A stretch of 64,000 bases of DNA from Dysgonomonas sp. 520 (GTDB lineage Bacteria; Bacteroidota; Bacteroidia; Bacteroidales; Dysgonomonadaceae): positions 66,557-130,556 of the forward strand of contig NZ_QVMP01000011.1 in the NCBI RefSeq assembly GCF_010501095.1, given 5' to 3'. Below are positions 4,770 through 37,306 of the stretch, piece by piece; positions within the stretch are counted from its first letter, which is position 1; the number at the start of each line of letters is the position of its first letter. The position numbers and the translations under genes are program-made. The notes under the pieces are model-generated. The model was given only the letters and a program-made list of their open reading frames with translations, was not told the DNA's origin and did no database searches.

Positions 4770-4843
4770 GGTTTTTCTTAATTGAAAGAGATGTTTGCCC
4801 CAAAAGAAATTCCTTTTTACTTTTGGGACAAACCTGCTCTGTT

Positions 4844-6343
4844 TTAATCTTTTTGGAACCAGCAATTGAACGTCATTGTAGTCTGTCTCTTAATATCGTC
4901 CGGAACATCCACCTTAACAATCTCTATGAATCCAACTTTCTGCACAGTTGCTCCTGATGAATCGAATTTTTGGAACATCAACACATCACCTTCCGAGAAT
5001 GGATTGGATGGATTTATATTGTTATAGTTGAATCGAGGAGTATTGAGTGTTGCATTCTGTATCTTCGCCTCACTTATTATTTCCGGACTTATCTTACCCA
5101 ATGTTCTGTTCTTGACCTGAGTATAGAACGGGCCTTCGTTCTTGTTGGTCGGCCTCATCAACCTGAATTTCAAAACTGTCGGCAATTTTTCGCCCGGCAA
5201 TAACGTTTCGCCACACATGAACATAGATGTTTGGTTTGCGCTATTGCTTGGGTTGTTTATTTGGAACGTGCCATTAGAGTCGCTCCAGGTTATAAAGAAG
5301 CTTATATTATTTTTGTTTGCTGCATATTCACAAGCCGAATAGAAAATACCTTTCTCAACGTTAAAGAACTGGTTGGTCATAGCCGGATCTTGTGCATGTA
5401 TCTCCAATCCGGGATAGAAAGTTACTTCGTTGGAAATAGAAGGGACATTGATTACGAAGTTAGACACAACTGTCATTTGCTCTGTCTCGTTGTATACCAA
5501 TATCATATCCACTTTTGTCTCTGCATAATATGATGTAGGGATAGTAAACGTTACTTCGGTTGGTGTTTGAGACTCGAAGTTGATAGCCTCATCGCCCAAC
5601 AGTATACGTGTTCCTGAATCCATATTAGTACCTGTAATAGTTATAGTTTCACCTATTGTTGCCGAAGTGGGGAATTCCGAAACAACCGGAACAGCGGTAG
5701 GTTTAGCGATAACGAAATTTTCCGTATCTGAGACAACAACCTCCGACGCGCCGTCCAAATACCCGATAGCGACTTTAACCGAAGCCCCAACTGTGAGTTG
5801 AGGAACAATGAAGCCTAAACTATCATTAGTCACATACGATATCTTGGCTGCAACGTCACCTACATACACATTCATCACTGATTTTAGATCTGTACCTTTC
5901 ATTATCACAGTTTCTCCGATAGTCATCTTTCCTTCGACCGATGGCCTGACTCCTGCCAATGTAGGGACAACAACCTCAACAGTGAAATCGCTACTACTTT
6001 CTGCAATGCCCTTAGGATTCTTCACCTGTATTTTTCCACTTCGAGCTTCCGGGCTGACTTCGATCAGAATTTTTGTGTTCGATATACGGTTCTTTATAGT
6101 AGCCAATTCGCCACCGATGTATACGGTATCTACCGTTGCAAAGTTTACTCCTGCAATCATTATTTCTGTTCCGGGCGCTCCGGAAAGAGGCTCGAATGAT
6201 GTTATTGCAGGTTCAACAACACTTCCTCTTATGTCTGATGTATCGATTTGCCCGTCTTCGTCACAAGCAACCAACGTGAACGAAAGTATAACCGACAAAA
6301 ATATCGCCAATTTATATGATATATTTTTCATCTTATTTCTCAT
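4844..6343 (-). CDS. IPT/TIG-domain surface glycan-binding lipoprotein (SusE/F position)
   Basis: A 499-residue lipoprotein. The signal sequence ends in TLVAC (lipobox) and the mature protein starts CDEDG, an acidic run of the kind that directs Bacteroidetes lipoproteins to the cell surface. Three IPT/TIG immunoglobulin-like repeats follow, each with a GxxGTEI/GETV-type turn: about residues 45-125 (FEPLSGAPGTEIMIAG), 130-215 (PSVEGKMTIGETVIMKG) and 220-300 (FPTSATIGETITITG). The C-terminal 200 residues are unrecognised and would carry glycan binding. It lies 8 bp after SusD in the same unit, the usual place for the accessory binding protein. ATG at 6343 and ATG at 6331 are both possible starts. 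Confidence 0.85.
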   Translation of the reverse strand: MRNKMKNISYKLAIFLSVILSFTLVACDEDGQIDTSDIRGSVVEPAITSFEPLSGAPGTEIMIAGVNFATVDTVYIGGELATIKNRISNTKILIEVSPEARSGKIQVKNPKGIAESSSDFTVEVVVPTLAGVRPSVEGKMTIGETVIMKGTDLKSVMNVYVGDVAAKISYVTNDSLGFIVPQLTVGASVKVAIGYLDGASEVVVSDTENFVIAKPTAVPVVSEFPTSATIGETITITGTNMDSGTRILLGDEAINFESQTPTEVTFTIPTSYYAETKVDMILVYNETEQMTVVSNFVINVPSISNEVTFYPGLEIHAQDPAMTNQFFNVEKGIFYSACEYAANKNNISFFITWSDSNGTFQINNPSNSANQTSMFMCGETLLPGEKLPTVLKFRLMRPTNKNEGPFYTQVKNRTLGKISPEIISEAKIQNATLNTPRFNYNNINPSNPFSEGDVLMFQKFDSSGATVQKVGFIEIVKVDVPDDIKRQTTMTFNCWFQKD

Positions 6344-17485: not shown

Positions 17486-17654
17486 ATTCTTCAATTGCAC
17501 AGGCTCCTTCCTATTTGAATGGAATTTACAATATTCTGATTGATTTCTACAAAGAAATTTTAGCTTAAATCGTTTGCTTTGTAAAACAATGATTAGCAGC
17601 AGATAAACACAATACAATTTTGATTTATTACACCCTAATCAGACAATTGTGCCA

Positions 17655-20354
17655 ATGAAAAACATTTTTACCATATTAACAATCATACTCTTACCTTGCC
17701 TATTTTGCAATGCGCAAGATATACTGCTTAATACCTCATTTGAAGACTATTCAACCGGCAATATAGACAAACAAAACAAATGGAGTGTGACCAAAGGATC
17801 CGCAACAATTGTTCAGGATCAATCTTATAGCCATACAGAAACTAACGGAATAAAATACACATCGGCTTCGGGCGCTCAAATGGATCATATTGCTTATACA
17901 AAAGCAGAAACAGGATTAACCGGAGAAGTATATGTAGACTTTTGGATAAAAATAAATTCTATTTCCACCGGTGCTTTAAGCATCACGGGTTACGACCTTG
18001 GCTCGAAAGACAGTAGAAGCTTTATGATAGAATTCTCTGCCGATGGTAAAATAAAAGTCTACAGCGGAAGCAGCGGATCATCAACAATAAAACCAACCTA
18101 CACCTTAGGACAATGGAATCGGATATCTTTCAAACAAAATAACACTACCAAAACATACCAGTTTGCGCTGAACGGAAATGCATACACCGACGCATTACCC
18201 TTTAGGGAAGTAAGGCAAGAACCGATTGATTACCACTCGATCCGTTTTCTTCAATCGAGCGGAACCTTTGATGTAGCAATTGATGATATATACATCGGTT
18301 CTAACCCAATATCCGACATCGATTTTCAAGGAGGAGATCCGGGAGACACAAAGCAATATACACTGTCAATCAATCAACCTCAGAATGCAACGATCAGCAT
18401 TTCGCCCGAACCTGTTGACGGAAAATATACAGAAGGAACTAAAGTTACAGCTAGTGTAACCATCAGCGATCTATGTAAGTATCGGTTCAACAAATGGACC
18501 GGCGACCTGTCTGCGACTTCATATCCCACCACTTTTACGATGACAAAGAATATGACAATCGGCGCAGATGTATCGGAAATTCCGGCAGAAGGAACTGTTC
18601 GCAATGTGAAAACTTATGCAGAACTAAAAAATGCTCTTTCTGCAATGAATCCTGGCGATATTATAGAGTTGGAAGACGGAACATACTCCGGCAATGGGCT
18701 CACTGTTACCCAAACAGGATGTGAAACACGACCTATTATTATAAGGGCAAAAAATATAGGACAAGCAAGACTAACGGGTAAACTCAATTTTACACTTCGC
18801 AACATCAGCCATGTAACTTTCGAAGGACTAATCTTCGATCTGGATGCTCTGTCAACCATTTTTAAGATGGAAGGGTGTAGCTATGTCCGCATCACCAAAA
18901 ATGAATTCAGGATGAAGAAAGAGTCTGACGGACAAACCTCAAAGTGGATAACGATAGGCGATGTCTGGGACAATGCGGTTTGCAGGAGTCATCACAACAG
19001 AATAGATCATAATCTATTCGACGGAAAATACGACGGAGGAGCATGGGTTGTAATAGATGGAGCTCACGGAACAAGCCCCGGTGATATTTCTAAATATGAC
19101 GTAATAGATCATAACCATTTCAGAAACAATACTCCGAGGGTTGCAAATGAAAAAGAAACAATACGCGTTGGGGTAACAGACCTAACGCCTACCAGTGCAT
19201 ATTGCACAATAGAATATAATCTGTTCGAAAATTGTGACGGCGACCCGGAAGTGGTTTCTATAAAATCGTGCGACAATCTGGTAAGGGGCAATACATTCAG
19301 GGGTTGTTTGGGTACTGTTTGTCTACGTCAAGGCTCTCGCAATACGGTAGACGGAAACTATTTCTTTGGAGATGCGAAAGAGGTTGACGGAAACGGTTGT
19401 GGCGGAGTTCGTGTATACGGGATCGATCATAAAATTATCAACAACTATTTTGAAGGATTGACAGGCGAAAAATGGGATGCAGCCTGCACCATAACAAATG
19501 GAGATGTATCAAATCCGTCTTCCAGTTGGAGCTCTCACAATATTCCCGAGAATGTGGTTTTTGCATTCAATACGTACATCAACAACAAATCGGATATTGA
19601 AATCGGCTTCAACAATGAAGGAAAATACGGAAAAGTACCAAAAAATTGCCTGATAACCAACAATATATACATCAACAATGAGAACCCGATAGTTAAAGTC
19701 CACAATGCTTCGTCTTTGGCAGGTGTTTCATTCTCCAATAATATAATGTATGCAACCGAAAACGGCAGCATTGGCACGAGTTTAAATGACGCTCAGGCAA
19801 AACAGATAGACCCCGGGCTTATAAAAACGAACTGCAAAAATCCGGGAGAAGACTGCAACAATTTATTACCTTACAACACCTATAAATTAGACCGTTACAG
19901 CCCGGCCATCGATGCTGCAACATTAAATTCGGATTATTCAACACTCGATTTTGAAGGACAACCCAGAAAAGGGAACAAGGATATAGGTGCAGATGAACGT
20001 AGCGACGAGGCTATTTCTAACGGCATATTAGGTATTGAGCACGTAGGTCCGCATGCAATTGATTTTGAACTAACATTTACCTCCGGTATCGATACTAACA
20101 AATCTTCGTCTCAAGTCATCGACTGTCAAGTTATAAATAAAACACTAAGTATCAATTTCTTCAATAAAAACAACGCCAATACAACTATAAAAATATCTAA
20201 TCTGAACGGAACAATCATAAAATCTTTTTCGGCTTATTCTTATTCGGGATTGAATAATATAACAATTCCTCTACAAGAACAACCGGCAGGAGTTTATTTA
20301 CTAATTATCAACAACAAAGAATACGAAGCCAGCCGTAAATTCATTTTAAAATAA
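17655..20354 (+). CDS. modular PL6 alginate lyase with N-terminal jelly-roll domain and T9SS signal
   Basis: An 899-residue secreted lyase; ATG at 17655 is preferred over the GTG at 17649. After the signal peptide (to CNAQ) residues about 25-215 form a LamG-like beta-sandwich that starts NTSFEDY and ends FDVAIDDIYIG, probably carbohydrate-binding. Residues about 232-305 are an InlB-B-like/bacterial repeat (YTLSINQPQNATISISP ... NKWTGDL). Residues 315-790 are the PL6 beta-helix with NEKETIRVG, VVSIKSCDN (Lys537) and VCLRQGSRN (Arg558). The last 75 residues are a T9SS sorting domain (IKISNLNG, GVYLLII). This should be an extracellular alginate depolymerase, complementary to the first PL6. Confidence 0.9.
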   Translation: MKNIFTILTIILLPCLFCNAQDILLNTSFEDYSTGNIDKQNKWSVTKGSATIVQDQSYSHTETNGIKYTSASGAQMDHIAYTKAETGLTGEVYVDFWIKINSISTGALSITGYDLGSKDSRSFMIEFSADGKIKVYSGSSGSSTIKPTYTLGQWNRISFKQNNTTKTYQFALNGNAYTDALPFREVRQEPIDYHSIRFLQSSGTFDVAIDDIYIGSNPISDIDFQGGDPGDTKQYTLSINQPQNATISISPEPVDGKYTEGTKVTASVTISDLCKYRFNKWTGDLSATSYPTTFTMTKNMTIGADVSEIPAEGTVRNVKTYAELKNALSAMNPGDIIELEDGTYSGNGLTVTQTGCETRPIIIRAKNIGQARLTGKLNFTLRNISHVTFEGLIFDLDALSTIFKMEGCSYVRITKNEFRMKKESDGQTSKWITIGDVWDNAVCRSHHNRIDHNLFDGKYDGGAWVVIDGAHGTSPGDISKYDVIDHNHFRNNTPRVANEKETIRVGVTDLTPTSAYCTIEYNLFENCDGDPEVVSIKSCDNLVRGNTFRGCLGTVCLRQGSRNTVDGNYFFGDAKEVDGNGCGGVRVYGIDHKIINNYFEGLTGEKWDAACTITNGDVSNPSSSWSSHNIPENVVFAFNTYINNKSDIEIGFNNEGKYGKVPKNCLITNNIYINNENPIVKVHNASSLAGVSFSNNIMYATENGSIGTSLNDAQAKQIDPGLIKTNCKNPGEDCNNLLPYNTYKLDRYSPAIDAATLNSDYSTLDFEGQPRKGNKDIGADERSDEAISNGILGIEHVGPHAIDFELTFTSGIDTNKSSSQVIDCQVINKTLSINFFNKNNANTTIKISNLNGTIIKSFSAYSYSGLNNITIPLQEQPAGVYLLIINNKEYEASRKFILK

Positions 20355-23583: not shown

Positions 23584-23650
23584 TTTTGTCATCCTGAGAG
23601 TATCGAAGGATCTGTTTTTTAGATGTTTCACTACGTTCAACATGACAAAA
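23584..23650. repeat. dispersed palindromic repeat, copy 1
   Basis: Begins TTTTGTCATCCTGAG and ends TTCAACATGACAAAA, with GAAGGATCTG and a TTTCACTACGTTC segment between. The outer arms are inverted. Related copies lie at 39370-39443 and 50441-50516, with decayed ones near 383-420 and 24447-24545. Translating this element produces the false N-terminal extension of the tetR frame. Confidence 0.75.
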
Positions 23651-23709
23651 ACTCAAAAATTAAGTATAATTTAAAAAGTCTAGATGACTTCTATCAAAAA
23701 AAAGACATC

Positions 23710-24330
23710 ATGGAAAAAGATTCATCAACAGAAGAAAAAATAAAGGAAGCCGCCAGAAAACTATTTCAGAAAAAAGGTTATGAAGGAACAAAATCGAGAG
23801 AAATAGCGGAAGAAGCAGGTATTAACTTAGCCTTACTCAATTATTATTATCGCAGTAAAGAAAAACTTTTCGATATAATCATGGCAGAAAGCGTGAATGA
23901 AATGTTCGCCTTTATGATGGAAATCGCTGATGATCTTAATACAAGTATAGAAGAAAAAATATACTTAATAACTAATAACTATGTAGACTTAATTAAAGGG
24001 AACCCTCATCTCCCGCTATTTGTTCTACGGGAGATTCAATCAAATCCGGATAAATTCATTGAAAAGAGCAACATTAACAGAAATTTCATCCGCAACAGCA
24101 CATTATATAAACAATTGGACGAAAGAAGTAAAATTAAAAATCCAGATCCATATTTTCCTCTTCAGGTTTTTATAAACATTATATCAATGGCCGTTTTTCC
24201 TGTTATTGCGAAACCTCTTTTGACAAAAATAAACGAAATGACAGAAGACGATTACCAAACATTCTTAGAAAAAAGACGCACACTCATTCCGCAATGGATA
24301 GAAATGATGTTGGATCTGAAAGATGAATAA
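23710..24330 (+). CDS. TetR/AcrR family transcriptional regulator
   Basis: A 206-residue regulator. The frame is open from 23623, but its first 29 codons read through a dispersed repeat, so ATG at 23710 (MEKDSSTEEKIKEAARKLF) is the start. Residues 8-55 are the TetR helix-turn-helix (GYEGTKSREIAEEAGINLALLNYYYRSKEKLFDIIM). The C-terminal 140 residues are the all-helical ligand domain; YPDF-like aromatic residues are scattered and no ligand can be named. Two inverted repeats upstream probably mediate autoregulation. A near-copy of the operator occurs in the leader of the following protease-SusCD operon, which suggests this is its local regulator. Confidence 0.88.
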   Translation: MEKDSSTEEKIKEAARKLFQKKGYEGTKSREIAEEAGINLALLNYYYRSKEKLFDIIMAESVNEMFAFMMEIADDLNTSIEEKIYLITNNYVDLIKGNPHLPLFVLREIQSNPDKFIEKSNINRNFIRNSTLYKQLDERSKIKNPDPYFPLQVFINIISMAVFPVIAKPLLTKINEMTEDDYQTFLEKRRTLIPQWIEMMLDLKDE

Positions 24331-24446
24331 AGTCATGAAAATAAAGTATTTCATATTACTGGGAATATTGCTCTACGCCGCTTCTAGTCTGCCCAAAGAC
24401 TAGCCATTGCCTCATCTACACCTCGGCGAACGCTATTTCTCAACAA

Positions 24447-24545
24447 AGAGAAGGATCTGTTTTTAGAATACGAGATTGTCAACTAATTACTGATAACTGT
24501 CATGTGTTCTTCAGATACTTCCTATCATCAGCAAGACAAAACAAC
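24447..24545. repeat. decayed copy of the dispersed palindromic repeat
   Basis: AGAGAAGGATCTGTTTTTAG at the left and TTCAGATACTTC ... TCAGCAAGACAAAAC at the right match the halves of the copies at 50441-50516 and 39370-39443. The middle is expanded and diverged. Confidence 0.45.
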
Positions 24546-24763: not shown

Positions 24764-24771
24764 TACTTTTG
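24764..24771 (+). promoter_or_regulatory. predicted promoter box of the protease-SusCD operon
   Basis: TACTTTTG is a full match to TAnnTTTG and lies 78 bp before the chosen start codon of the metalloprotease. No exact TTTG is present at -33. Confidence 0.55.
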
Positions 24772-24849: not shown

Positions 24850-27441
24850 ATGAAAAAAGTTTCTCTATGTATTGTGTTATTACTATCATTTTCATTCAAC
24901 TCCTATGCCTCAAATCCATTTAAAAAATTAGTTGAAGAAGCTGTTGAAAAAGCAAAAAATGATAGTACATCAACTCCTAAAAAGAAATATGAGGATATAA
25001 TAAAAGACTCTAAAACAAAGAAGGGTCTATTTACCACTCATTTTTCGAAAGAAAATAAGCTATATCTCGAATTCAACGATTCGGCTCTAGAACATACATA
25101 TCTACTTTCGAACCGAATTGCATCAACCAGCAATACACACGATTTTGTGGCAGGTCAAATGGCTACCCGGCCTATGGTAATACGTTTTTCGAAAGACCAG
25201 AAAAATGTATACCTGCATAAAGTGCAAACAGACAGCGAAGTAGAAAAAGGGTCTTCAATAGAATCTTCTTTCGAAAAGAACTTTTTCGATCCGGTTATCA
25301 AAGGTTTTCCTATTGTTTCCGAAAACGGAGAAAACATTGTTATTGATGTCACATCATTTTTTGGTGACAATGAGAAGTGTATCAGTCCCATAAAGCCGGA
25401 CAGCCCTCTTGCCAAACTACTTGGAGGCTCTTCAAACCTGAAAGGGACATTTGTTTCGGATGCCTCAAGCGTGCAGGAAGTAAAAACATTTGTAAAAAAC
25501 ATTGAGATACGCAGTATGCTGACATTCACCACTACTCCACTCAATGAGCCTTATACTGTGGTTATGAACCGCTCGATTATTCTTCTACCCGATACGTTGA
25601 TGAACAAACGCTTACAAGACAATCGGGTTGGATTTTTCAGCTCCGACAGAAGTTTATATACAACCAAACAAGATAAAGTTGTGCCATACACCTTTATTCA
25701 TAAGTGGAATTTGCAACCCAAACCCGAAGATAAAGACGCATATTTCAGAGGTGAACTGGTTGAACCTGTAAAACCAATTGTTTTCTATGTAGACAGCGCA
25801 TTCCCCGAAAAATGGAGAGTGGCAGTAAAACAAGGAATTGAAGACTGGAACATGGCTTTCGAAGTTGCCGGATTCAAGAACGCCATAAAGGCAGTCGATT
25901 ATCCGAAGAATGACCCTGATTTCGATCCTGACGACATGCGGTACAGTTGTGTAAAATATGCAACCACGCGCACAGCTAATGCAATGGGTCCAAGCCACAT
26001 AGACCCCAGATCGGGAGAAATACTTACAGCAGACGTCATCTGGTATCACAACATCTTATCGCTGCTACACAACTGGCGATTTGTTCAAACAGCTTCTGTC
26101 GATCCTCGTGTTCGCAAAAGTGTGTTTGACGATGATGTAATGCAAGAATCGATGCGCTATGTATCATCTCACGAGATAGGGCATACAATCGGGCTAATGC
26201 ACAATATGGGAGCAAGTTACTCTTATCCGGTCGATTCACTGCGCAGTCCGTCTTTTACTCAACAATATGGCACAACGCCAAGTATAATGGACTATGCACG
26301 TAACAACTTCATAGCTCAACCCGGAGATATGGAAAAAGGAGTAAAACTAACACCGCCAATATTAGGTGTTTACGATATTTTTGCTATCAATTGGGGATAC
26401 AGGCTAATCCCGAATGCAGAAACTCCCGAAGATGAAAAACCAATCCTTACATCGTGGATTGAAGAAAAGAAAAATGACCCGATGTATGAATTTGGTGCAC
26501 AACAATTTTTCGGAACCATCGACCCTACCGACCAAACAGAAGACTTAGGTAATGATCACATCAAAGCAGGCGATTTGGCTATCAGCAACCTGAAAATCGT
26601 GATGCAAAATCTGGAAGACTGGACGATGGAAAGAGGTGAACGTTTCGACAATGTAGAAAGCACATACCAGCAGGTTGTCCGTCAATACGGACGACATCTC
26701 CGCCACGTACTTCCATACATAGGAGGTGTGAACTTCAAAGAAATCAGACAAGGTGATTCCGACGCCGATGCTGCGAAAAAATATTTTGACAAGAAGGAAC
26801 AAAAAAGAGCTATAATCTGGCTTGTTGATCAGGCAAGAACCTACAACGACTGGCTGACTCCACCTAACCTGGCAATGAAAATCGGTATAGACCTGAATGC
26901 CAACGATAAGTTACAAAACGCAGTAGTTGGCGGATTGTTCAACACCGGAGTTCTCTATCGCATCACCGAAAGTGAAAAAATTGATCCTGAAAACAACTAT
27001 TCTCTCAATGAATATGTGAACGATGTTGTTGCCGAAATATTTAAGCCGACACATAACAATAAAGCATTAAGTTCGGCAGATATCAATCTTCAAACTTCTG
27101 CCATAACTTATATGATAAACGGAAGCGGATTAAAACAACCGGAAAAGAAAGCATCTTCTATTTTAGGAGCTTACGAAGAATTCGTCTTAGCGATGGACGA
27201 ACCAACACTTCCTTGCAATCATTCGGCATTGGAGCACAGTGATCATGACGGACATTCTTTTCTGAGAATCAACTTCGGACTGTCTACATTGCCCGCAATG
27301 TCATTAAATCCATTAATGACCAGTCAATTGAAGAATGTATTGAACCTATATAAGAAAAAAAGGTCGTCAGTTTCTGATGCAACAACAAAGAACTACTATG
27401 AGTATCAGATTCTTAAACTCGAAAAACTGTTTAAAGATTAA
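24850..27441 (+). CDS. secreted zinc-dependent metalloprotease (DUF4953/DUF5117-type)
   Basis: An 863-residue protein; ATG at 24850 gives signal peptide MKKVSLCIVLLLSFSFNSYA (a TTG at 24844 is less likely). The N-terminal 300 residues match the DUF5118/DUF5117 type region (LYLEFNDSALEHTYLLSNRI, NRSIILLPDT). The metzincin site HEIGHTIGLMHN supplies zinc ligands His441, His445 and His451 with catalytic Glu442, and SIMDYARNN is the Met-turn. The rest fits DUF4953. Bacteroidetes members are large periplasmic or surface peptidases, often next to SusCD genes. It is the first gene of a six-gene operon. Substrate unknown. Confidence 0.9.
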   Translation: MKKVSLCIVLLLSFSFNSYASNPFKKLVEEAVEKAKNDSTSTPKKKYEDIIKDSKTKKGLFTTHFSKENKLYLEFNDSALEHTYLLSNRIASTSNTHDFVAGQMATRPMVIRFSKDQKNVYLHKVQTDSEVEKGSSIESSFEKNFFDPVIKGFPIVSENGENIVIDVTSFFGDNEKCISPIKPDSPLAKLLGGSSNLKGTFVSDASSVQEVKTFVKNIEIRSMLTFTTTPLNEPYTVVMNRSIILLPDTLMNKRLQDNRVGFFSSDRSLYTTKQDKVVPYTFIHKWNLQPKPEDKDAYFRGELVEPVKPIVFYVDSAFPEKWRVAVKQGIEDWNMAFEVAGFKNAIKAVDYPKNDPDFDPDDMRYSCVKYATTRTANAMGPSHIDPRSGEILTADVIWYHNILSLLHNWRFVQTASVDPRVRKSVFDDDVMQESMRYVSSHEIGHTIGLMHNMGASYSYPVDSLRSPSFTQQYGTTPSIMDYARNNFIAQPGDMEKGVKLTPPILGVYDIFAINWGYRLIPNAETPEDEKPILTSWIEEKKNDPMYEFGAQQFFGTIDPTDQTEDLGNDHIKAGDLAISNLKIVMQNLEDWTMERGERFDNVESTYQQVVRQYGRHLRHVLPYIGGVNFKEIRQGDSDADAAKKYFDKKEQKRAIIWLVDQARTYNDWLTPPNLAMKIGIDLNANDKLQNAVVGGLFNTGVLYRITESEKIDPENNYSLNEYVNDVVAEIFKPTHNNKALSSADINLQTSAITYMINGSGLKQPEKKASSILGAYEEFVLAMDEPTLPCNHSALEHSDHDGHSFLRINFGLSTLPAMSLNPLMTSQLKNVLNLYKKKRSSVSDATTKNYYEYQILKLEKLFKD

Positions 27442-27503
27442 GAGAAAGTTATAATCTTTAAATTATAACATATAAATTACATCAATTACAAAATATATTG
27501 CTA

Positions 27504-30500
27504 ATGAAAAAATTGATATACACTTTCATACTATTCCTCTTTTCGGTGGGTTTAGTAGCACAGAATGTTTCAATAAAAGGGAAGATTTCTGATACACGAG
27601 GCGAACCCATCATCGGAGCAAGTATAAAGCTACTGGACGGCAAGATGATAGCTGTTACCGATATTGACGGACTTTTTAAAGCTGACGTTCCTAGCAAACC
27701 CGATCTTATATTAACGGTTTCATACATGGGATATCAATCTCAGAATGTGAAAGTAGCAGGAAAAACGGAGCTCAATATCGTACTGAAAGAAGACGCTCAG
27801 AAACTGGATGAGATAGTGGTTATCGGTTACGGAACACAAAAGCGTTCATCCCTTACCAGTTCTATCGAAACTATAAATAGTGACGACCTTCTGAAAGTTC
27901 CTATCACAAATATTGATCAGGCTCTTGCCGGACAAGTTGCAGGAATGAATGCCATGTCAATGAGTGGCGATCCAAGTTCGGGACGCGAGGCAAATATAAG
28001 CATCCGGGGAATATCAAAAGATCCTTTACTCGTGATTGATGGTGTACCTCGTTTCGGAACAGATACTTCCAACAGCGAAACCCGATTATCGGACTTGAAT
28101 CCGGACGACATAGAAAGTATCTCCATCCTTAAAGATGCCGCTGCCTCCGCCGTATATGGAGCCAGAGCTGCCAATGGAGTTGTACTTGTAACAACTAAAC
28201 GAGGGAAAGGCAACAAAAAAGTAAAATTAAACTACAGGGGTCAGTTCAACCTGCAAAAAGCGACTAAACTCCCTGAATTTCTGAATGCTTACGAATTTGC
28301 CAAGCTTTTTAACAGAGCAGTTGAAAATTCGCCTGATGCAACTTATACACCTTATACAGATGAACAATTGGAAATGATCCAAACTCATTCCAATCCGAAC
28401 GTGTATGGAGACAATAATTTGATGGATTATCTGAAAGATTATGGTTATTCAACCACCCACACCCTTTCGGCAACAGGAGGTGGAGAAGATATTACATACT
28501 ATATTTCGGGAGGTTACGTAAACACTCGGGGTTTATATAGCGGGATAGGACGAGACAGGTACAATTATTCAATGAAGTTGGATGCCAAATTGATGAAAGG
28601 GTTGACATTGTCGGTAGACATGATGGGTACACGATCTGAATATAAGTATACAACTTCCGGAGCCTTAGATGCTGCATATAATTTCAGGCCAACACAGACA
28701 TTACAGTTCACCGACGGGCATCTGGCCAGTATCAACAGTTCCAATCCTCTTATAGGAATAAAAGGGTTGGGAGGATACACAAAAAACAAAGGAAACCTTA
28801 ACACCTTATCAGCTAATCTTAAATATGATTTCTCGGGCATAAAAGGGCTTTCCACATATCTAAGAGCAACTTTTGACACCAATAACAGCATAATCAAAAC
28901 GCAAAAGAATCCGGTTGCCCTCTACACATACGATGAGAAAACAGGAGAAATAAGTGTGGATGAAAAAACGATATACCCCGACGCAACCGGTACACTGACT
29001 GAAAGAGATCAGAATCTTGACAACAGGTTGCTGGAAGCCGGTATCAATTACAATAACACATTTGCAGCCAAACACAATGTATCGGGCATGTTGGTTGCAA
29101 ACTATCAGGAAACTAAGTCCAGATATTTCAGTGGAATAAATGAAAACATGACCAGTTCATATCCTGAAATTATCGGAACCAATATTTCCGGAAAACTGAA
29201 CGGAGATGAATTTTACACTGAAAGAGCTTCGTTAATAGGCCGTTTTACTTATGGATATGATTACCGATATTTTTTCGAAGCTAATTTCAGGGTGGATGGA
29301 TCTACTAAATTTCACCCTGACAATAGGTGGGGATTCTTCCCTTCGGCCTCGGCTTCTTGGATATTATCGAATGAGAAATTCTTTAAAGATTGGAAACAAG
29401 ACGCTATTTCAAACATCAAATTCAGAGGATCAGCAGGGCTTCTCGGCGATGATGGGTTAGTAAATGAGTATTCATATCTAATGGGGTATATAGCTACTTC
29501 CAACGATGGTTATAATATAGGGGGCAAGTATAATCAGGGAATTATCATGGCCGTGCAAGAACTTCCCAACATAGAAACTCAATGGGCAAAAAGAGAAGAT
29601 TATAACATAGCTGCCGATCTTGGTTTTTGGGATAATAGATTTGGATTAACGTATGAGTACTATTGGAGGTATGAAACTAATATGTTACAGCCGGTTTCAT
29701 CCTACAATTACCCGCCATCGTCAGGTATTGGAGGCAGGCTTCCATATCAGAACTTTGGAAAAATGAAAGTCTGGGGGTGGGACTTGACATTTAGCCACAA
29801 GAATGCCATAGATAAAGTGAAATATAATATTGATCTGACTTTATCCAAATTTACGGATAAATGGCTGGATTACGGGAACGAATCTAACCAACTCGAAAAT
29901 CTCAGAAGAAAAGGCAAAGGCCGTTTTATGACTTGGGTATATGAAGCCGAAGGGCTGTTCCAATCGTGGGAAGAAATAGAAAATCTGGATTATGACCAAG
30001 ACGGAAAAGGGAATACAACCCTGGCTCCGGGCGATATCAGATACAAAAACCAGAATCCGGACGAAGACAAGGTTATAGATGAGAAAGATCAGATAGCCGT
30101 GAAAAGCTCTAATTATCCCGACTTATCAATTGGGTTGAAATTGGGTGTTAATTACAAAGGATTCTTTATGAATGCACTGTTTCATGGTGTTACGGGATAT
30201 AAAAAATATATCAATGATATCTATACTCTCGAAAGCAACAGCTTGCAACGTTTCCAAAAATATCATCTGGAGGAAACATGGACAGAAGATAACCCAAATG
30301 CAAAATATCCCAGGATAAAATTTGCGCCCACAACCGATAACAATCGGAAAGCATCGACTCTGTGGATAAGAGAATGTGACTTCTTGCGCCTCAAATCTCT
30401 ATCTATCGGTTATGCAATGCCCACTCATATAGTAAAAAAACTGCGTCTCAGTTCCCTGAGTATATCCTTGCAAGGAAGCAATTTATTTACCATATCGTCA

Positions 30501-30581
30501 CTAAAAGATATGGACCCCGAATCGCAACGAGGATATCCCATTCAACGGAGCTATGGAGCTAGTCTAAGTATCGGTTTTTAA
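27504..30581 (+). CDS. susC: SusC/RagA family TonB-dependent transporter (protease operon)
   Basis: A 1025-residue SusC/RagA protein; ATG at 27504 is preferred to the TTG at 27498. It shows signal peptide (to GLVAQ), the carboxypeptidase-regulatory-like domain (SIKGKISDTRGEPIIGASI), TonB-box region LDEIVVIGYGTQKRSSLTSS, plug motif DIESISILKDAAASAVYGARAANGVVLVTTKRG and a C-terminal barrel strand ending SYGASLSIGF. It is 62 bp after the metalloprotease gene. With two metalloproteases and no glycosidase in the operon, the imported substrate is more likely peptide than sugar, as for RagAB; that is inference. Confidence 0.95.
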   Translation: MKKLIYTFILFLFSVGLVAQNVSIKGKISDTRGEPIIGASIKLLDGKMIAVTDIDGLFKADVPSKPDLILTVSYMGYQSQNVKVAGKTELNIVLKEDAQKLDEIVVIGYGTQKRSSLTSSIETINSDDLLKVPITNIDQALAGQVAGMNAMSMSGDPSSGREANISIRGISKDPLLVIDGVPRFGTDTSNSETRLSDLNPDDIESISILKDAAASAVYGARAANGVVLVTTKRGKGNKKVKLNYRGQFNLQKATKLPEFLNAYEFAKLFNRAVENSPDATYTPYTDEQLEMIQTHSNPNVYGDNNLMDYLKDYGYSTTHTLSATGGGEDITYYISGGYVNTRGLYSGIGRDRYNYSMKLDAKLMKGLTLSVDMMGTRSEYKYTTSGALDAAYNFRPTQTLQFTDGHLASINSSNPLIGIKGLGGYTKNKGNLNTLSANLKYDFSGIKGLSTYLRATFDTNNSIIKTQKNPVALYTYDEKTGEISVDEKTIYPDATGTLTERDQNLDNRLLEAGINYNNTFAAKHNVSGMLVANYQETKSRYFSGINENMTSSYPEIIGTNISGKLNGDEFYTERASLIGRFTYGYDYRYFFEANFRVDGSTKFHPDNRWGFFPSASASWILSNEKFFKDWKQDAISNIKFRGSAGLLGDDGLVNEYSYLMGYIATSNDGYNIGGKYNQGIIMAVQELPNIETQWAKREDYNIAADLGFWDNRFGLTYEYYWRYETNMLQPVSSYNYPPSSGIGGRLPYQNFGKMKVWGWDLTFSHKNAIDKVKYNIDLTLSKFTDKWLDYGNESNQLENLRRKGKGRFMTWVYEAEGLFQSWEEIENLDYDQDGKGNTTLAPGDIRYKNQNPDEDKVIDEKDQIAVKSSNYPDLSIGLKLGVNYKGFFMNALFHGVTGYKKYINDIYTLESNSLQRFQKYHLEETWTEDNPNAKYPRIKFAPTTDNNRKASTLWIRECDFLRLKSLSIGYAMPTHIVKKLRLSSLSISLQGSNLFTISSLKDMDPESQRGYPIQRSYGASLSIGF

Positions 30582-30606
30582 GGTATAACAGAAAAGAAAT
30601 TTCATT

Positions 30607-32364
30607 ATGAAAATAAAAAAATATATCGCAACATTCGTCCTGTTTGCAGGCTTATTGACAACTACATCGTGTGATGATCTTTTTCGGGATAGTCCCATTA
30701 ATAAACTACCCGAAAACATGATCTGGGAAGATCCAAAACTGTTGGACGGATATGTCTTGCCTTGGTATAGGAAAATGAATAACGGTTTTAGCGTATACAT
30801 GCCAACCAATACTTTACTACATGGTATCAGCAGGGAGTTTTTGCCTTGGTTTGGCGACCAGATAACTGTGAGTAAGAGCGATTGGTATAATACTTCCTAT
30901 GGAGGTATATTGCAGTGCGACCCCAAAAACATAAGGATAAAAGGGCTTTCTCTTTGGACCACTTATTACGAGCAGATCAGATCTATAAATCTTCTTTTCG
31001 AGAATCAGGGAAAAATTCCTGAAGGGACTCATAAAGATCGAATTCTGGGAGAAGCTCACTTTTTCAGAGCATATTATTACTATATGCTATTGCGTCAATT
31101 CGGAGGGCCTATCTTATTGAAAGAAGTGTATGACCCACTAAAAAACCCACAGAAATACCCAAGAGCTTCTTACGAAGAAATGGTGGAATTTATAACACAA
31201 GAGGCAATTCTGGCTGAATCTTATCTTCCCGATACGTATGGTTCGGAAGATATAGGACGGGCAACCAAAGGCGCAGCAATTATGCTGAGAGCCAAAACGT
31301 ACTTTTGGGTGGCAGGCGACCACTTCCAAAATCAGGAAAAAGACTATTTAGGTTTTCCTGATAATAGATCAGAAGCTATGCTTATTAGTGCAAAAGAGGC
31401 TTATGACGAATTGATGAAACTTCCGTATGATTTAGTGCAAATAGATGGTGATTCACAAGAACAGATTAAGGAAGGATACAGGCAGATTTTTCTTACAAAA
31501 AATTCTATCGAATCTATCTGGGAAGTTCAACATTCCGATAATGGCGATTATTCATCAGGATTCGGACATAAACTGGACAGGGAAGCCTCTTCTTCTTATT
31601 ATGGAGGAACAACCGCTGCATACACTCCCACACAAAACCATGTGGATGAATATGGAATGCAGGAAGGCAAAACTTACGATCCCAGCAATCCGTATGAAAA
31701 CAGAGACTATCGTTTCTATGCCAATATTCTGTACGATGGCTGTGTTTATAATAATCACACAATGGAAATCCATTATACAAAGGTAGATGGCAAAGAAGTA
31801 GCCGGTGCAGACCTAACTCCGTATGGTGCGTCTGAAAGTGCTGCTGTTACAAAAACAGGATATTATATGGGGAAATTTGTCAAAGAAGGAGAAAAAATAA
31901 ATTCCGACCCAACCTATGCCAGTAGCCAGAATTACATAATCTGGCGATTTGCAGAAGTATTGCTCGACTATGCCGAAATAGACTTTAAACAAGGACGAAC
32001 AGGCGATGCACTGGAGAAAGTTAACCGGATACGCCGACGGGCACATATGCACGAGTTAACGAGCATCACATGGGAAGCTATTATGAACGAACGTCGGGTA
32101 GAAATGGCTTTCGAAGAAACTACTTATTGGGACTTCTATCGTTACAATATTGCTTTTGATAAGATGAACGGTAAAACTAATCCTCTGAAAGCAATGAAGA
32201 TTGTGAAAGAAGAAGGAAAACCAACCACCTATACCATATCTAATATAAACAGATTCCCATCAAGAGTCAGATATTTTGAAGATAGGCAATATTATTACCC
32301 AATAGCATGGGATGATAAGAAATATCATGGTGTAGAACAAAATCCGGACTGGACAGAAGGTTAA
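30607..32364 (+). CDS. susD: SusD/RagB family lipoprotein (protease operon)
   Basis: A 585-residue SusD/RagB partner of the preceding SusC, 25 bp apart. Lipobox LTTTSC at residues 17-22, mature N-terminus CDDLFRD. Motifs include ILGEAHFFRAYYYYMLLRQFGGPIL, the TKGAAIMLRAKTYFWVAGDH helix, IIWRFAEVLLDYAEIDFKQG and MNERRVEMAFEETTYWDFYRYN, all diagnostic of the fold. It should be the surface lid and binding protein of the transporter. It is longer than the alginate-locus SusD, with insertions around residues 300-380. Confidence 0.95.
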   Translation: MKIKKYIATFVLFAGLLTTTSCDDLFRDSPINKLPENMIWEDPKLLDGYVLPWYRKMNNGFSVYMPTNTLLHGISREFLPWFGDQITVSKSDWYNTSYGGILQCDPKNIRIKGLSLWTTYYEQIRSINLLFENQGKIPEGTHKDRILGEAHFFRAYYYYMLLRQFGGPILLKEVYDPLKNPQKYPRASYEEMVEFITQEAILAESYLPDTYGSEDIGRATKGAAIMLRAKTYFWVAGDHFQNQEKDYLGFPDNRSEAMLISAKEAYDELMKLPYDLVQIDGDSQEQIKEGYRQIFLTKNSIESIWEVQHSDNGDYSSGFGHKLDREASSSYYGGTTAAYTPTQNHVDEYGMQEGKTYDPSNPYENRDYRFYANILYDGCVYNNHTMEIHYTKVDGKEVAGADLTPYGASESAAVTKTGYYMGKFVKEGEKINSDPTYASSQNYIIWRFAEVLLDYAEIDFKQGRTGDALEKVNRIRRRAHMHELTSITWEAIMNERRVEMAFEETTYWDFYRYNIAFDKMNGKTNPLKAMKIVKEEGKPTTYTISNINRFPSRVRYFEDRQYYYPIAWDDKKYHGVEQNPDWTEG

Positions 32365-32411
32365 AAAAAGATATAAGTAAATTTATTAACAACATTAAAA
32401 AAAGATTGAAT

Positions 32412-33311
32412 ATGAAAAAAAAGATTTTTACCATTGCAATGATGTGTTTTGGATTTGTAAGTTACTCCAATGCACAAGAATATAATTTATTCGATCCTGC
32501 CGATGTGGATGCTGATGGCTGGATATGGTTCGATACTCAAGCCAAAATTGACAAATATATTGGTCTGGCTGATAATGAGAATATGCAATATGACGAATCG
32601 GGAAAACTTATCCAGTTAGTTTGTGCCGATTTTGATCCTTATGCCGATTCTGAAGCCTCTCCTACAGTTATTGGTGCAGGAACAGAGGGCGACCTTGGTG
32701 GTACTGATGCTAAAACAGGAGCAATAAAAGTAGCACCCGCTTCGGCTTCAATGACTGCTAACGGCGGTGGTTTCGCTATAAAAATGCCTTCATGTACATC
32801 GTTTAACATTATGCTTTCTGCCGATAGTAAAGTATATGCACGTTTGTTAGGAGCTGAAGCTGCAAATAAAAGATTTACCGACTACACAGTAGTTTCGGCA
32901 AAATACTCTACTGTATTTGCACCACTAATGTCAGCTGGTCAAAAAACTTGGACCGATATGCATAAATTAAACAGTGGAAACGAACCTTACTTTGATTATG
33001 AATCTGCCACCACGATGTATGCTTATTATCAAAATCTTACAAAGAATGATATTTTCATCCACGGAATGAAGATAATGACTTCAACTCCAAATTCAGGCAT
33101 CGGAAATGTTGAAAATGGTTCATTCAAGTTCGACGGAAAAACTATTTCTTTAGACGGAATGGCAAACATATCTGTTTACAATCTGCAAGGTGCTACTGAA
33201 AAATCTGTTTATGCAAACAGTTTGGATGTAAGCAACTTGGCAAAAGGAGTTTATGTAGTTAAAGCTGCAAACGGCGAAAAAGCATATACTCAAAAAATAA
33301 TAATTAAATAA
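32412..33311 (+). CDS. secreted T9SS protein of unknown function
   Basis: A 299-residue protein; ATG at 32412 follows a TTG at 32406 that I reject. Signal peptide to SNAQ, a body with no recognised domain (YNLFDPADVDADGWIWFDTQAKIDKYIG, CADFDPYADSEASPTVIG, FNIMLSADSKVYARLLG), and a clear T9SS type A sorting domain at the end (ISVYNLQGATEK, DVSNLAKGVYVVKA). It sits in the SusE/F position but is not a lipoprotein, so it would be T9SS-exported and surface-attached or released. A ligand-binding role for the SusCD pair is inferred from position. Confidence 0.75.
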   Translation: MKKKIFTIAMMCFGFVSYSNAQEYNLFDPADVDADGWIWFDTQAKIDKYIGLADNENMQYDESGKLIQLVCADFDPYADSEASPTVIGAGTEGDLGGTDAKTGAIKVAPASASMTANGGGFAIKMPSCTSFNIMLSADSKVYARLLGAEAANKRFTDYTVVSAKYSTVFAPLMSAGQKTWTDMHKLNSGNEPYFDYESATTMYAYYQNLTKNDIFIHGMKIMTSTPNSGIGNVENGSFKFDGKTISLDGMANISVYNLQGATEKSVYANSLDVSNLAKGVYVVKAANGEKAYTQKIIIK

Positions 33312-33323
33312 AAATATAATTGC

Positions 33324-35855
33324 ATGAGATACATTACACTATTTGTCATTTTAACATCGTTCGTCTTCTCATCGCAGGCTCAGCAAAATAAAGGAGAACT
33401 GGCAAACCTTGTATGCTTTGTCCGTTTTGCAGATGAAGATGAATCTATTTTTGATCAGACAATAACTCATTACGAGCAATTGTTTAATAACGAGGAGACC
33501 ACTTCTGCATCGGTGTACAATTATTTCTGGCAAGCGTCGTACGGACAATTGAAATGGAAAAGTGTAATGTATCCCCTTGCAAATAATACGACGATAGTTT
33601 CGTATAAAGCTCAAAAGTCCAGAAATTATTACTTGCATAAAACCAGTATCAACCCGGAAGGTTATGACGAAAATAATGCTACCGATGCTTTATCGAGAGA
33701 ACAGAATCTGGTGAAAGAAATCACAGATTACATGGAAACTATAATTCCATCCACCGAAAACCTTGACAAAAATAACGATGGGGTGATTGACAACATCACA
33801 CTCATCATCAGCGGGAACTCAGAAATCAGCAACAGATATATGATGTGGCCTCACAGGTCTACATTGTATATAATACAAGGTAGTATTCATGAGAAAAGAG
33901 TGAATGAATATATCCTCTTATTTGCCGACGGAAATGGTTGGAGCAACCTCTCTCCCACTCCCCTCAATGCAGGAGTTTTGTGTCACGAGATGTCGCATAC
34001 TTTGGGTACGCGAGACTTATATCATAATCAGAAAGGCCTGAGCCCGATAGGAACATGGGACTTGATGTCTGACAATTTGCAGACACCACAGGGAATGAGT
34101 GCCTATACCAAGTATAAATACTGCAAATGGATAGACGAAATTCCCGAAATATCCACTCCCGGTACATACACATTAAATCCTGTTGGAGGGAACTCAAAAG
34201 AAAACATAGCATACAAAATAAAACCCACAGGATCAAGCGAGTATTTTGTTTTGGAATACCGCAAAAAAGATGGCCCTTTCGAGAGTGGCATTCCATCTTC
34301 CGGACTATTAGTATATCGAATCAACCCCAATTTCACAGGCAATGAGAATTACGATGGAATAAGCAAATTTGACGAACAATATCTTTTCCGTAAAAATGGT
34401 ACAACAACCTCCGACGGAAACATTTCACAAGCAGCTTTTAGCCAGGAAAGTGGACGTGTCGCATTCGGAGGATCGGCCAGCGAGAAACCATTTTATACAG
34501 ATGGGCGCGAGGCTCAGTTTGCAATCAGCAATGTTTCATCTTGCGGAGAAACAATATCTTTCGACTTGTTGCCGTTTTCCACTCAGATACACCCGTCATT
34601 AACCACTATTTCATTGAATGGAAACCAAGGTAGCAGCACATCTTTCCAAATAGAAGCAGTGAATACAGACTGGCAAGTAAAATCGAAACCAGATTGGCTG
34701 GAAGTTTCTCCACTCAGCGGAAATGCAGGTAGCTCCACATTAACCGTTACCACAAATAGCCGGAACAACCAAGCTGCTATTCGAGATGGTAAACTGATAA
34801 TCGAAAGCACATCAAACAATGCTATATTTGCAACAATTGACATATTCCAAAAGTCTGACATCATTCAACCACCTCACGGACTGACTGCTGAAGAAACGGA
34901 CAACAAAATAGCCCTGACTTGGAAAAAGCCGTTAGAGGGAACTCCGACTTTAACTGAAGACTTCGAAAACATTGCGAATAAAGGCTTATGGACATTCAAA
35001 ACTGAAAACAACGTTGGTTGGGTATGGCAAGAGAGTGAGAAATACAAACTGCCTTACGAAGGAAAATTCTCGGCACGACTCAACTCCGAAATGCAAGACC
35101 GTCATCAAGATGAATGGCTGATATCTCCTGCCTTTGCCAATGGATCTACATTGATATTCTATTCAAACTCTATCGCTCCCGGAAAAACGAACGCTCATAA
35201 TTTTTATTATGTAAAAGTTAGTAAAGACGGTGGTAATAGTTGGGAGAATGTATATGATTTGAAAACTCAAAGTTCAACAACAAATAAATATGAACGCATT
35301 GTTGTTGACCTATCTGCACATCAATCGGATAATATGAAAATAGCGTTCCATGCTTATGACGACAACAACGAAGGACTTTCGTATTGGTGGCATGTCGATA
35401 ATATTGCCATCTATCCTACCCCTAGTTCATCAATAGTCAAAGGATATCACATATATAGAAATGGTGAGAAGATAGGTTCTTCGCAAGAACTATTGTTCAC
35501 GGACGAAAGTCCATTAAACGGTGAAAATATTTATGCAGTGAAAGCAGTTGGAGATTTTGGAGAAACTCCTCTCTCCGATAGCGTAACTATAGAATATGAC
35601 CTATCTGGAATTGGACAAACAGATGCTGACGAAATAAAGATATCCATATCTGACTCTCATATAAATATCTTAAGTAGTGAAGGTGATATTCAAAACATCT
35701 CATTGTATAATCTCAACGGAAATATGCTGTATGAGAATAAAAACGCAAGTACATCTTACGACATATCAACCAGTATTCTCTCGAAAGGTGTTTACATTAT
35801 AAGATTGTTTAGAGAAAGCAAATCGCCACAATCATATAAAATATTGATAAAATAA
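33324..35855 (+). CDS. T9SS-exported M6-type metalloprotease with BACON, FN3 and adhesin-like domains
   Basis: An 843-residue multi-domain protease. The M6 (immune inhibitor A-like) catalytic domain spans about 20-415, with the zinc site HEMSHTLGTRDLYH (His221, Glu222, His225, Asp231) and a GTWDLM Met-turn near 248. A BACON-like domain (about 420-515, TDWQVKSKPDWLEVSPLSG) follows, then a FN3 segment (HGLTAEETDNKIALTWKKP), a cleaved-adhesin/choice-of-anchor-J domain (about 545-700, DEWLISPAF, WWHVDNIAIYP), a second FN3 end and a T9SS sorting domain (ISLYNLNG, KGVYIIRLF). It is secreted and probably acts on proteins or glycoproteins outside the cell, feeding the SusCD pair of the same operon. 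Confidence 0.88.
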   Translation: MRYITLFVILTSFVFSSQAQQNKGELANLVCFVRFADEDESIFDQTITHYEQLFNNEETTSASVYNYFWQASYGQLKWKSVMYPLANNTTIVSYKAQKSRNYYLHKTSINPEGYDENNATDALSREQNLVKEITDYMETIIPSTENLDKNNDGVIDNITLIISGNSEISNRYMMWPHRSTLYIIQGSIHEKRVNEYILLFADGNGWSNLSPTPLNAGVLCHEMSHTLGTRDLYHNQKGLSPIGTWDLMSDNLQTPQGMSAYTKYKYCKWIDEIPEISTPGTYTLNPVGGNSKENIAYKIKPTGSSEYFVLEYRKKDGPFESGIPSSGLLVYRINPNFTGNENYDGISKFDEQYLFRKNGTTTSDGNISQAAFSQESGRVAFGGSASEKPFYTDGREAQFAISNVSSCGETISFDLLPFSTQIHPSLTTISLNGNQGSSTSFQIEAVNTDWQVKSKPDWLEVSPLSGNAGSSTLTVTTNSRNNQAAIRDGKLIIESTSNNAIFATIDIFQKSDIIQPPHGLTAEETDNKIALTWKKPLEGTPTLTEDFENIANKGLWTFKTENNVGWVWQESEKYKLPYEGKFSARLNSEMQDRHQDEWLISPAFANGSTLIFYSNSIAPGKTNAHNFYYVKVSKDGGNSWENVYDLKTQSSTTNKYERIVVDLSAHQSDNMKIAFHAYDDNNEGLSYWWHVDNIAIYPTPSSSIVKGYHIYRNGEKIGSSQELLFTDESPLNGENIYAVKAVGDFGETPLSDSVTIEYDLSGIGQTDADEIKISISDSHINILSSEGDIQNISLYNLNGNMLYENKNASTSYDISTSILSKGVYIIRLFRESKSPQSYKILIK

Positions 35856-35886
35856 TACTCTATATACTCATTAAAAATTTCAAATT

Positions 35887-37254
35887 ATGAAAAAACGATT
35901 ACTTACATTCTTATTGTGTCTGGGCTTTATCAGTCTGACGACAATAACTAAGGCACAAGATGTGATTAAACTCACCTCCACCGCAACAAGTGAGATGACA
36001 TTTGGTCTTGGAGTTTCAACCATACCTACAGTCGTGTCAATTGATTGGGGAAATGGTACATTCGTCGACTACACCGTAGATAAAGACGGTTCTTCCGCAT
36101 CTGAAACTTTCGAAGCCACTGGCACACCATCCGGAACAGGAGAAATTACGATTAAAGGAGTAGGAATCACAGCTTTTGATTGCGATTTCAACCTTGAAAC
36201 TCCGGAAGTTGTAACAGCGCTTGACGTAACAGGTGCTGTAAACCTGACCAGATTGACATGTGTTAGCCAATCTATTTCTACACTCGACTTAAGCTATAAC
36301 ACTGCTTTAACCAGATTAGTGATCAATAACACAAAAAATAAAAACTTAACAACGCTTAAGTTGAAAGACAATGCTGCTTTAACTTATTTGAATTGTTCTG
36401 GCAACAATCTGACAGCAATAAATGTAGAAGATAGTCCTTTATTAGATTATCTGAATGTTTCGGATAATAATATCTCGTCAATCGATTATAGCAAAAATAC
36501 TGTTGTAAGGGATTTGTATCTACAGAATAATAAGATAGCAACACTTGATGATTCTGTATGGCCTTCGTTGACAAAATTGAGAACATTGAATGTTAGTGGC
36601 AACCTGCTAACCTCGTTAGTTGGAACAGATGCTTTTGCGGCAAAAACATCTTTTACCTTTAACTGCTCAAAAAACTATCTGAATATTGCAACTCTTCCTC
36701 AACCCGGATCGTTAAGTGCCCGATTCAATTATGCTCCTCAGGCAGCTTATGAAATTCCTGAAAGTATTCAGGAAAATGCCGAGCTTGACCTTTCTTCTCA
36801 GAATAACGTAAAAGGTGTTTTAGCTACTCCTGTTGCTACAACATATACTTGGACAACGGAGTCTGGTACTGCATTGGTGGTAAACGACGATTATACCGAA
36901 GCTGATGGTAAATTCACCTTCCTGAAACCTCAGACTGAGAAAGTAGTGTGTTCGATGACCACAACAGCTTTCCCTAAATTTACAGGTGATAATGTATTCA
37001 AAACAACCCCTATGGCAGTTCTTGCTTCTACTGGAATTGGTGAGGGTGTGAAAGATGCCATCAACATCTATGCAAGAGAAAACATACTATACATCAATGG
37101 CTTAAATGGCTATGAAAGAATAAATGTAATTAACCTGCAAGGTGTATCCGTATATTCAACAATTGCGGCAGGCGCAGAAATATCAACTGAACTTCCTTCC
37201 GGAATCTACATTGTTTCTGTGGATGGAAATGCAAGTAAAGTAATTATAAAATAA
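35887..37254 (+). CDS. secreted leucine-rich-repeat T9SS protein
   Basis: A 455-residue protein with signal peptide (to TKAQ), an N-terminal beta domain (residues 25-105), and about seven leucine-rich repeats between 110 and 275 (LTRLTCVSQSISTLDLSYN, LTYLNCSGNNLTAINVEDS, LDYLNVSDNNISSIDYSKN, LRTLNVSGNLLTSL). An Ig-like segment and a T9SS sorting domain follow (INVINLQGVSVY, LPSGIYIVSVDGN). LRR proteins of this type bind proteins or host surfaces. Being last in an operon with two proteases and SusCD, it may present protein substrates; no activity is evident. Confidence 0.85.
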   Translation: MKKRLLTFLLCLGFISLTTITKAQDVIKLTSTATSEMTFGLGVSTIPTVVSIDWGNGTFVDYTVDKDGSSASETFEATGTPSGTGEITIKGVGITAFDCDFNLETPEVVTALDVTGAVNLTRLTCVSQSISTLDLSYNTALTRLVINNTKNKNLTTLKLKDNAALTYLNCSGNNLTAINVEDSPLLDYLNVSDNNISSIDYSKNTVVRDLYLQNNKIATLDDSVWPSLTKLRTLNVSGNLLTSLVGTDAFAAKTSFTFNCSKNYLNIATLPQPGSLSARFNYAPQAAYEIPESIQENAELDLSSQNNVKGVLATPVATTYTWTTESGTALVVNDDYTEADGKFTFLKPQTEKVVCSMTTTAFPKFTGDNVFKTTPMAVLASTGIGEGVKDAINIYARENILYINGLNGYERINVINLQGVSVYSTIAAGAEISTELPSGIYIVSVDGNASKVIIK

Positions 37255-37275: not shown

Positions 37276-37306
37276 GGGGTTACTTTTTGAGTAACCCCAT
37301 TTTTTT
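37276..37306. terminator. bidirectional terminator between protease operon and pectin locus
   Basis: GGGGTTACT (37276-37284) and AGTAACCCC (37290-37298) form a perfect 9-bp stem with a five-base loop, flanked by an A run on the left and a T run on the right. It can end transcription from both sides and sits between two convergent operons. Confidence 0.9.

Follow-up and report, generated by a model that had tools for sequence, protein, structure and literature searches.

A conserved SusCD operon whose recognised enzymes are all proteases is probably a protein-utilisation locus in Dysgonomonas sp. 520

A 64,000-nucleotide stretch of the Dysgonomonas sp. 520 genome (contig NZ_QVMP01000011.1, positions 66,557 to 130,556; hereafter the window) contains six plus-strand genes at 24850-37254. 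We consider that these probably form a locus for protein use, complete in itself and centred on a SusCD pair, with cutting at the cell surface, import of peptides and trimming in the periplasm. The genes encode, in order, a metzincin-type metalloprotease (M), a SusC transporter (C), a SusD lipoprotein (D), a protein with a type IX secretion system (T9SS) sorting tail (U), an M6-family metalloprotease and a leucine-rich-repeat protein (L). The intergenic gaps are 56, 25, 41, 12 and 31 bp. The original prediction had described this operon from the sequence alone, and its layout and domain calls were reproduced, with all open reading frames (ORFs) in place and a terminator after L. Its claim that the operon lacks a glycan enzyme also held, as no carbohydrate-enzyme domain was found in any of the six proteins among Pfam and TIGRFAM-type profile matches. 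Because the set is inherited as a unit in many gut and oral Bacteroidales, with two protease types and no sugar-cutting enzyme, it is probably a device for the cutting and import of protein and not of sugar.

The linkage of these genes extends well beyond the window. A profile scan for M across species-representative genomes recovered 80 loci. The gene immediately after M is SusC in 41 loci (the window and 40 others), with median gaps of 11 bp between M and C and 15.5 bp between C and D (44 C-D pairs). Gene content was counted in the 54 loci that have at least 9 kb downstream of M. M-C is found in 28 of these, M-C-D in 27 and U in 21; 14 of the U loci have the M6 gene, and 12 have L. Among the hosts are Bacteroides salyersiae, B. 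nordii, Coprobacter secundus, Paraprevotella, several Prevotella-type genera and Muribaculaceae. The M6 gene is on the divergent strand beside M in L021, L028, L037 and L089, so the association of M with M6 survives rearrangement.

That the genes should travel together in other genomes had been set beforehand as a test, and the result was positive. Among 393 genomes sampled from the order, full-length U is present in 10 and full-length M6 matches at E < 1e-100 are present in 10, with the same genomes in both sets (G000, G095, G103, G176, G200, G207, G346, G352, G365 and G409, from five families). In all 10 genomes, the same contig also carries an M with at least 60% identity. The remaining U matches in the sample cover the generic T9SS tail only, and nearly all of the remaining M6 matches cover the protease domain only. 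The chance of identical sets is about 5e−20 by genome and 5e−9 by family, although these figures ignore shared ancestry and are therefore generous. For the six proteins, matrices of pairwise distance are correlated in all 15 comparisons (r 0.74-0.91, Mantel p 0.0005).

At its smallest, the locus consists of M-C-D only, with unrelated genes after it (L024, L025, L030, L068 and L015). Judged by gene content, M-C-D is predicted to be the invariant core and the surface layer an exchangeable addition. Mean identity is 56-60% for M, C and D, about 50% for the M6 protease and 34-38% for U and L; the lower values of U and L indicate that the outer layer changes faster than M-C-D. No carbohydrate-active enzyme (CAZyme) recurs as a partner among the neighbours of the 41 M-C loci. 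Glycoside hydrolase family 28 (GH28)-like genes lie ~5-11 kb off in three Prevotella-type loci, but their distances and orientations differ and we regard them as chance neighbours.

The protease slot of the surface layer is itself variable. In three Prevotella-type loci, C10 cysteine proteases (PF01640, E 2e−62 to 3e−65) occupy the slot beside U and L (L046:18787-19767, L051:18113-19132 and L075:9139-10095). Their GCVA and GGHxWVxDGY motifs are intact and they end in a T9SS-like tail. The C10 protease replaces M6 in L046 and accompanies it in L051; L075 has no visible M6, with the upstream side outside the examined sequence. A second protease from one of these unrelated families, M6 or C10, is found nearby in 16 of the 21 U loci. 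The use of two unrelated protease families in one slot is the strongest sign of a protein target.

M (24850..27441, plus strand) was identified by Pfam matches to DUF4953 (E 2.6e−111), DUF5117 (5e−52) and DUF5118 (6.6e−16), by its motifs and by a structure model (pLDDT 88) in which residues 260-519 adopt a metzincin fold. The catalytic part is nearest to karilysin and matrix metalloproteinases (MMPs; Z 9.1, root-mean-square deviation (rmsd) 3.0, 147 aligned), and serralysins are also among the best matches. The fold and HExxHxxGxxH motif are shared with karilysin/MMP-type metzincins, but M differs in its length of 865 aa, in the DUF5118/5117 domains in front, in a helical C-terminal half and in the lack of a T9SS tail. 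All 74 relatives retain an intact zinc site (HExGHxxGxxH) and Met-turn (S[IV]MDY). M has an N-terminal Sec signal sequence with neither a lipobox nor a T9SS tail, and in nearly all of the 74 relatives a Lys-rich stretch comes after a Sec-type signal and there is no sorting tail; L074 is the clear lipoprotein-like exception. From these export signals, M is more likely to be located in the periplasm than at the surface. Two metalloproteases are present as originally predicted, but only the M6 protease has a surface-export signal.

Other arrangements around M were also seen. In L078-L088 (e.g., L080:4052-12484, L087:1-7274 and L088:4221-12559) the order is divergent, with SusC, SusD, a ~290-aa lipoprotein and then M. 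An extracytoplasmic function (ECF) sigma factor and FecR pair precedes this set in L078. The ~290-aa lipoprotein has a weak Peptidase_Mx1 score but no HExxH, and we rejected it as a protease. In Porphyromonas gulae (L052:1-9431), a stand-alone M adjoins tandem repeats with the translations FNCTIQELK and LHHTGIKT, and these resemble CRISPR arrays.

C (27498..30581, plus strand) is a SusC/RagA TonB-dependent transporter (TIGR04056, 862.7 bits, E 4.6e−259). The adjacent D (30607..32364, plus strand) is the SusD/RagB lipoprotein lid (PF07980, E 1.2e−41; PF14322), with the lipobox TTSC. Together they have the composition of a SusCD uptake system, i.e., a TIGR04056 SusC next to a SusD lipoprotein. 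The nearest solved relative of C is 8aa4 (E 7.3e−103; its entry title reads only "SusC homolog"), followed by 5t3r and then RagA, with BT_2264 more distant (E 1.8e−35). The closest solved structure to D is 3qnk (E 2.6e−34), whose ligand is not known. We rejected a substrate call from these nearest structures as not decisive.

U (32406..33311, plus strand) was assigned to a T9SS-exported family by alignment, its sorting tail (Por_Secre_tail, E 1.7e−8; TIGR04183, 36.4 bits against a cut-off of 23) and a structure model. Besides the tail, no Pfam family scored above the cut-off in U. The model (pLDDT 85) consists of one beta-sandwich domain (about residues 24-228) and the T9SS tail. The nearest fold is the adhesin domain of Lys-gingipain (Kgp; 4itc, Z 10.2, rmsd 3.0, 137 aligned). 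As modelled, the fold points to binding, without indicating the ligand. U could not be named by profile search, which gave no match beyond the T9SS tail except a spurious ribosomal one, nor by fold, given a tie of adhesin, carbohydrate-binding module (CBM) and MAM domains. Going by its sequence matches, U is a putative new family that is full-length only in this type of locus. Two U homologs (L042:7726-8604 and L047:17684-18571) end in dockerin-like repeats in place of the usual T9SS tail.

The M6 protease (33324..35855, plus strand) combines its catalytic domain with BACON, choice-of-anchor-J (adhesin-like) and T9SS sorting domains, as identified by profiles, alignment and the zinc motif. It scores 122.7 bits for TIGR03296 (cut-off 110.8), 53.7 for choice_anch_J (cut-off 30) and 31.1 for TIGR04183 (cut-off 23), and matches BACON at E 3.2e−7. 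The HExxHxxGxxD zinc site is present as HEMSHTLGTRD. L (35887..37254, plus strand) contains leucine-rich repeats (LRR_4, E 3.8e−11) and a DUF6383/T9SS-like tail. The tail scores 25.6 bits for DUF6383 (cut-off 23.7) and 21.7 for TIGR04183, below the cut-off of 23. T9SS tails had been claimed for all three surface proteins; those of U and the M6 protease are above the cut-off, and that of L is likely rather than certain.

The export route that this layer would require is present in the U-bearing hosts tested. PorU, the T9SS sortase, was found in all 25 U-bearing genomes tested and in 8 of the 10 M-C-D genomes tested. In the window genome it occurs twice, so that U and the M6 protease, with sorting domains above the cut-off, have the features of T9SS cargo. 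The two M-C-D genomes that lack PorU are both Bacteroides pyogenes and are without the T9SS cargo genes (the L014 contig ends less than 9 kb downstream). The joint absence of PorU and the surface genes is suggestive only, as the two B. pyogenes genomes represent one lineage. The window genome also encodes an S46 dipeptidyl peptidase and a PTR2 peptide transporter, which could finish peptide use.

In our proposal, U, the M6 protease and L reach the surface of the cell by way of the T9SS. There, U, the BACON and anchor-J parts of the M6 protease and the leucine-rich repeats of L would hold a protein substrate while M6 cuts it. SusD would capture the resulting peptides and SusC would import them with TonB energy. 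M, exported by Sec without a surface-sorting signal, would then trim the peptides in the periplasm. The surface layer (U, protease and L) would be added only in T9SS-bearing cells, with M6, C10 or both as the protease. A capture-cut-import system for proteins or glycoproteins had been predicted for the operon. That prediction is supported in part: the linkage of the genes, the C10 protease as a second type in the slot and the lack of a recurrent CAZyme partner favour a protein target, but peptide import by this SusCD pair and a protein rather than a glycoprotein substrate are what we infer, as are the direction of flow, the site of M and the binding roles of U and L.

Several observations weigh against this proposal. 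The correlated distances reflect species relatedness in part, and roughly one in four U loci has no second protease nearby. The Kgp adhesin match of U is tied with the binding domain (CBM) of a pectate lyase (Z 10.0) and with reelin and meprin MAM domains. BACON and leucine-rich-repeat modules are also known from glycan-related and adhesion settings. The nearest solved SusC, 8aa4, is a dextran transporter. Some of these points would suit a glycoprotein system, in which the proteases open glycosylated host or plant proteins (e.g., mucins), the SusCD pair imports glycopeptides, and glycosidases are supplied from elsewhere in the genome. Some true glycan loci do contain peptidases (PMC6298971). 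No glycosidase or sulfatase, however, recurs beside the locus among the neighbours of the 41 M-C loci. Mucin loci normally carry several of these enzymes, which counts against such a system, and we consider it unlikely despite the CBM-like fold of U and the BACON domain of the M6 protease, a domain linked to glycoprotein binding.

It is improbable that the operon is a polysaccharide locus with an unrecognised glycan enzyme (e.g., U as an enzyme or binding module) and accessory proteases. The dextran specificity of 8aa4 and the weak CBM77 score of U (E 0.072, under the cut-off) could be read in this way, and it has been proposed that SusCD loci without a recognised CAZyme conceal unknown ones (PMC6499787). 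In the minimal M-C-D form, however, the protease is the only enzyme, and the single beta-sandwich and tail of U are of a binding type with no clear match to an enzyme catalytic domain. Surface proteolysis might instead free haem, iron or a vitamin for import by the SusCD pair, as is reported for TonB systems with surface proteins in Bacteroides (PMC13142918). This is very improbable, because the loci have no recurrent haemophore-type, Fur-linked or cofactor gene and a periplasmic protease beside SusCD would be superfluous. Virulence proteases exist in both the C10 and M6 families, and the proteases could in principle serve host interaction or defence with an incidental SusCD pair; as M-C-D is constant and it is the surface protease that varies, we give this hardly any weight.

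Import of peptides by a SusCD-type pair has a precedent, as originally noted, in RagAB of Porphyromonas gingivalis, which takes up gingipain-cleaved peptides (PMC11817032). There, too, a SusCD-type pair works in a proteolytic cell where T9SS surface proteases make the peptides, and U matches the adhesin fold of Lys-gingipain. The present locus differs in that proteases and importer are in one conserved operon, and RagA is not the closest SusC by sequence. The gingipain genes are not known to be part of the rag operon. BT_2263/BT_2264 of B. thetaiotaomicron is another peptide-binding SusCD pair, with a cavity that can hold deca-glycine or several peptides (PMC11817032, citing Glenwright et al.), although its SusC is more distant from C than 8aa4 is.

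With polysaccharide utilisation loci (PULs), the operon has in common a SusCD pair, a surface enzyme, a periplasmic enzyme and surface binding proteins. In contrast to PULs, every recognised enzyme is a protease, and there is neither a CAZyme nor a conserved adjacent regulator. By its gene content, the locus is a putative PUL-like variation on known SusCD systems with proteases as the only recognised enzymes. In a survey of 28,250 susC/D loci, 52% were CAZyme-free, and sulfatases and peptidases were predicted in 11% of that fraction (PMC6499787). Where a single SusC gene adjoins a peptidase gene, a protein target has been proposed (PMC7029141). The survey figure is a bulk count, whereas the present locus is a defined six-gene set of which no description was found in the literature searched. 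Searches for DUF4953, DUF5117 and M6 with SusD returned neither a description of the locus nor a paper on DUF4953/DUF5117. The trypsin-degrading locus 00502-00509 of Paraprevotella clara (PMC9477747) was considered as a candidate since P. xylaniphila carries the present locus (L037), but was set aside, as its key proteins (an Omp28-related protein and a WD40 + Ig-like protein) are unlike M6, U and L.

The first start of the operon is best placed at ATG 24850, although the ORF list has TTG 24844. A promoter-like TAnnTTTG box (tacttttg, 24764..24771, plus strand) was read directly 79 bp upstream of this ATG; it is of the Bacteroidetes −7 type and is a putative promoter. A strong intrinsic terminator (37276..37298, plus strand) with a 10-pair stem and T-run follows L. 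It can also be read as the terminator of the convergent GH127 gene and is then common to both. The sole adjoining regulator gene encodes a TetR protein (23623-24330), which we rejected as the operon regulator, since TetR is not conserved upstream in other loci. No linked hybrid two-component system or ECF-sigma/anti-sigma regulator is present at the window locus, and no regulator family recurs among the neighbours of the 41 M-C loci. The interval between the TetR gene and the operon (24325-24487) contains a stunted ORF, MNKVMKIKYFILLGILLYAASSLPKD, together with an orphan stretch that resembles a C-terminus, RTLFLNKEKDLFLEYEIVN; these may be what a gene deletion left behind.

The operon had been placed between two uronan loci. 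The left flank, with two PL6-type lyases, a PL17-like alginate lyase, MFS and SDR genes and a GntR regulator, fits an alginate locus, and the right flank, with GH127, GH78, a BT_1020-like protein and a pectinesterase, fits a pectin locus. Both flanks appear to be incidental, because the operon recurs elsewhere beside unrelated neighbours. The two PL6-type (Chondroitinase-B) lyases, at 2382-4865 and 17649-20354, are in neighbouring transcription units, and only one has a T9SS tail. The GC content of the locus (39.1%) matches that of the window (38.9%), so base composition gives no sign of recent transfer. Among sampled relatives in the window's own family, a close M gene was found in this genome alone, a hint of horizontal spread long ago.

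About half of the SusCD loci in Bacteroidetes are CAZyme-free (PMC6499787), and few of these have a known substrate; the present locus is a defined and conserved case. The chances seem to us evenly balanced that it is a widespread protein-utilisation locus of Bacteroidales, a protein counterpart of the PUL with a core of SusCD and a periplasmic metzincin and an exchangeable T9SS layer. The prediction is sharp (protein in, peptides via SusCD, periplasmic trimming), and carriers such as Bacteroides salyersiae, B. nordii and Coprobacter secundus can be cultured. If it is true, the DUF4953/DUF5117 protease family would gain a function, and gut and oral Bacteroidales would feed on protein by the same machine that they use for glycans.

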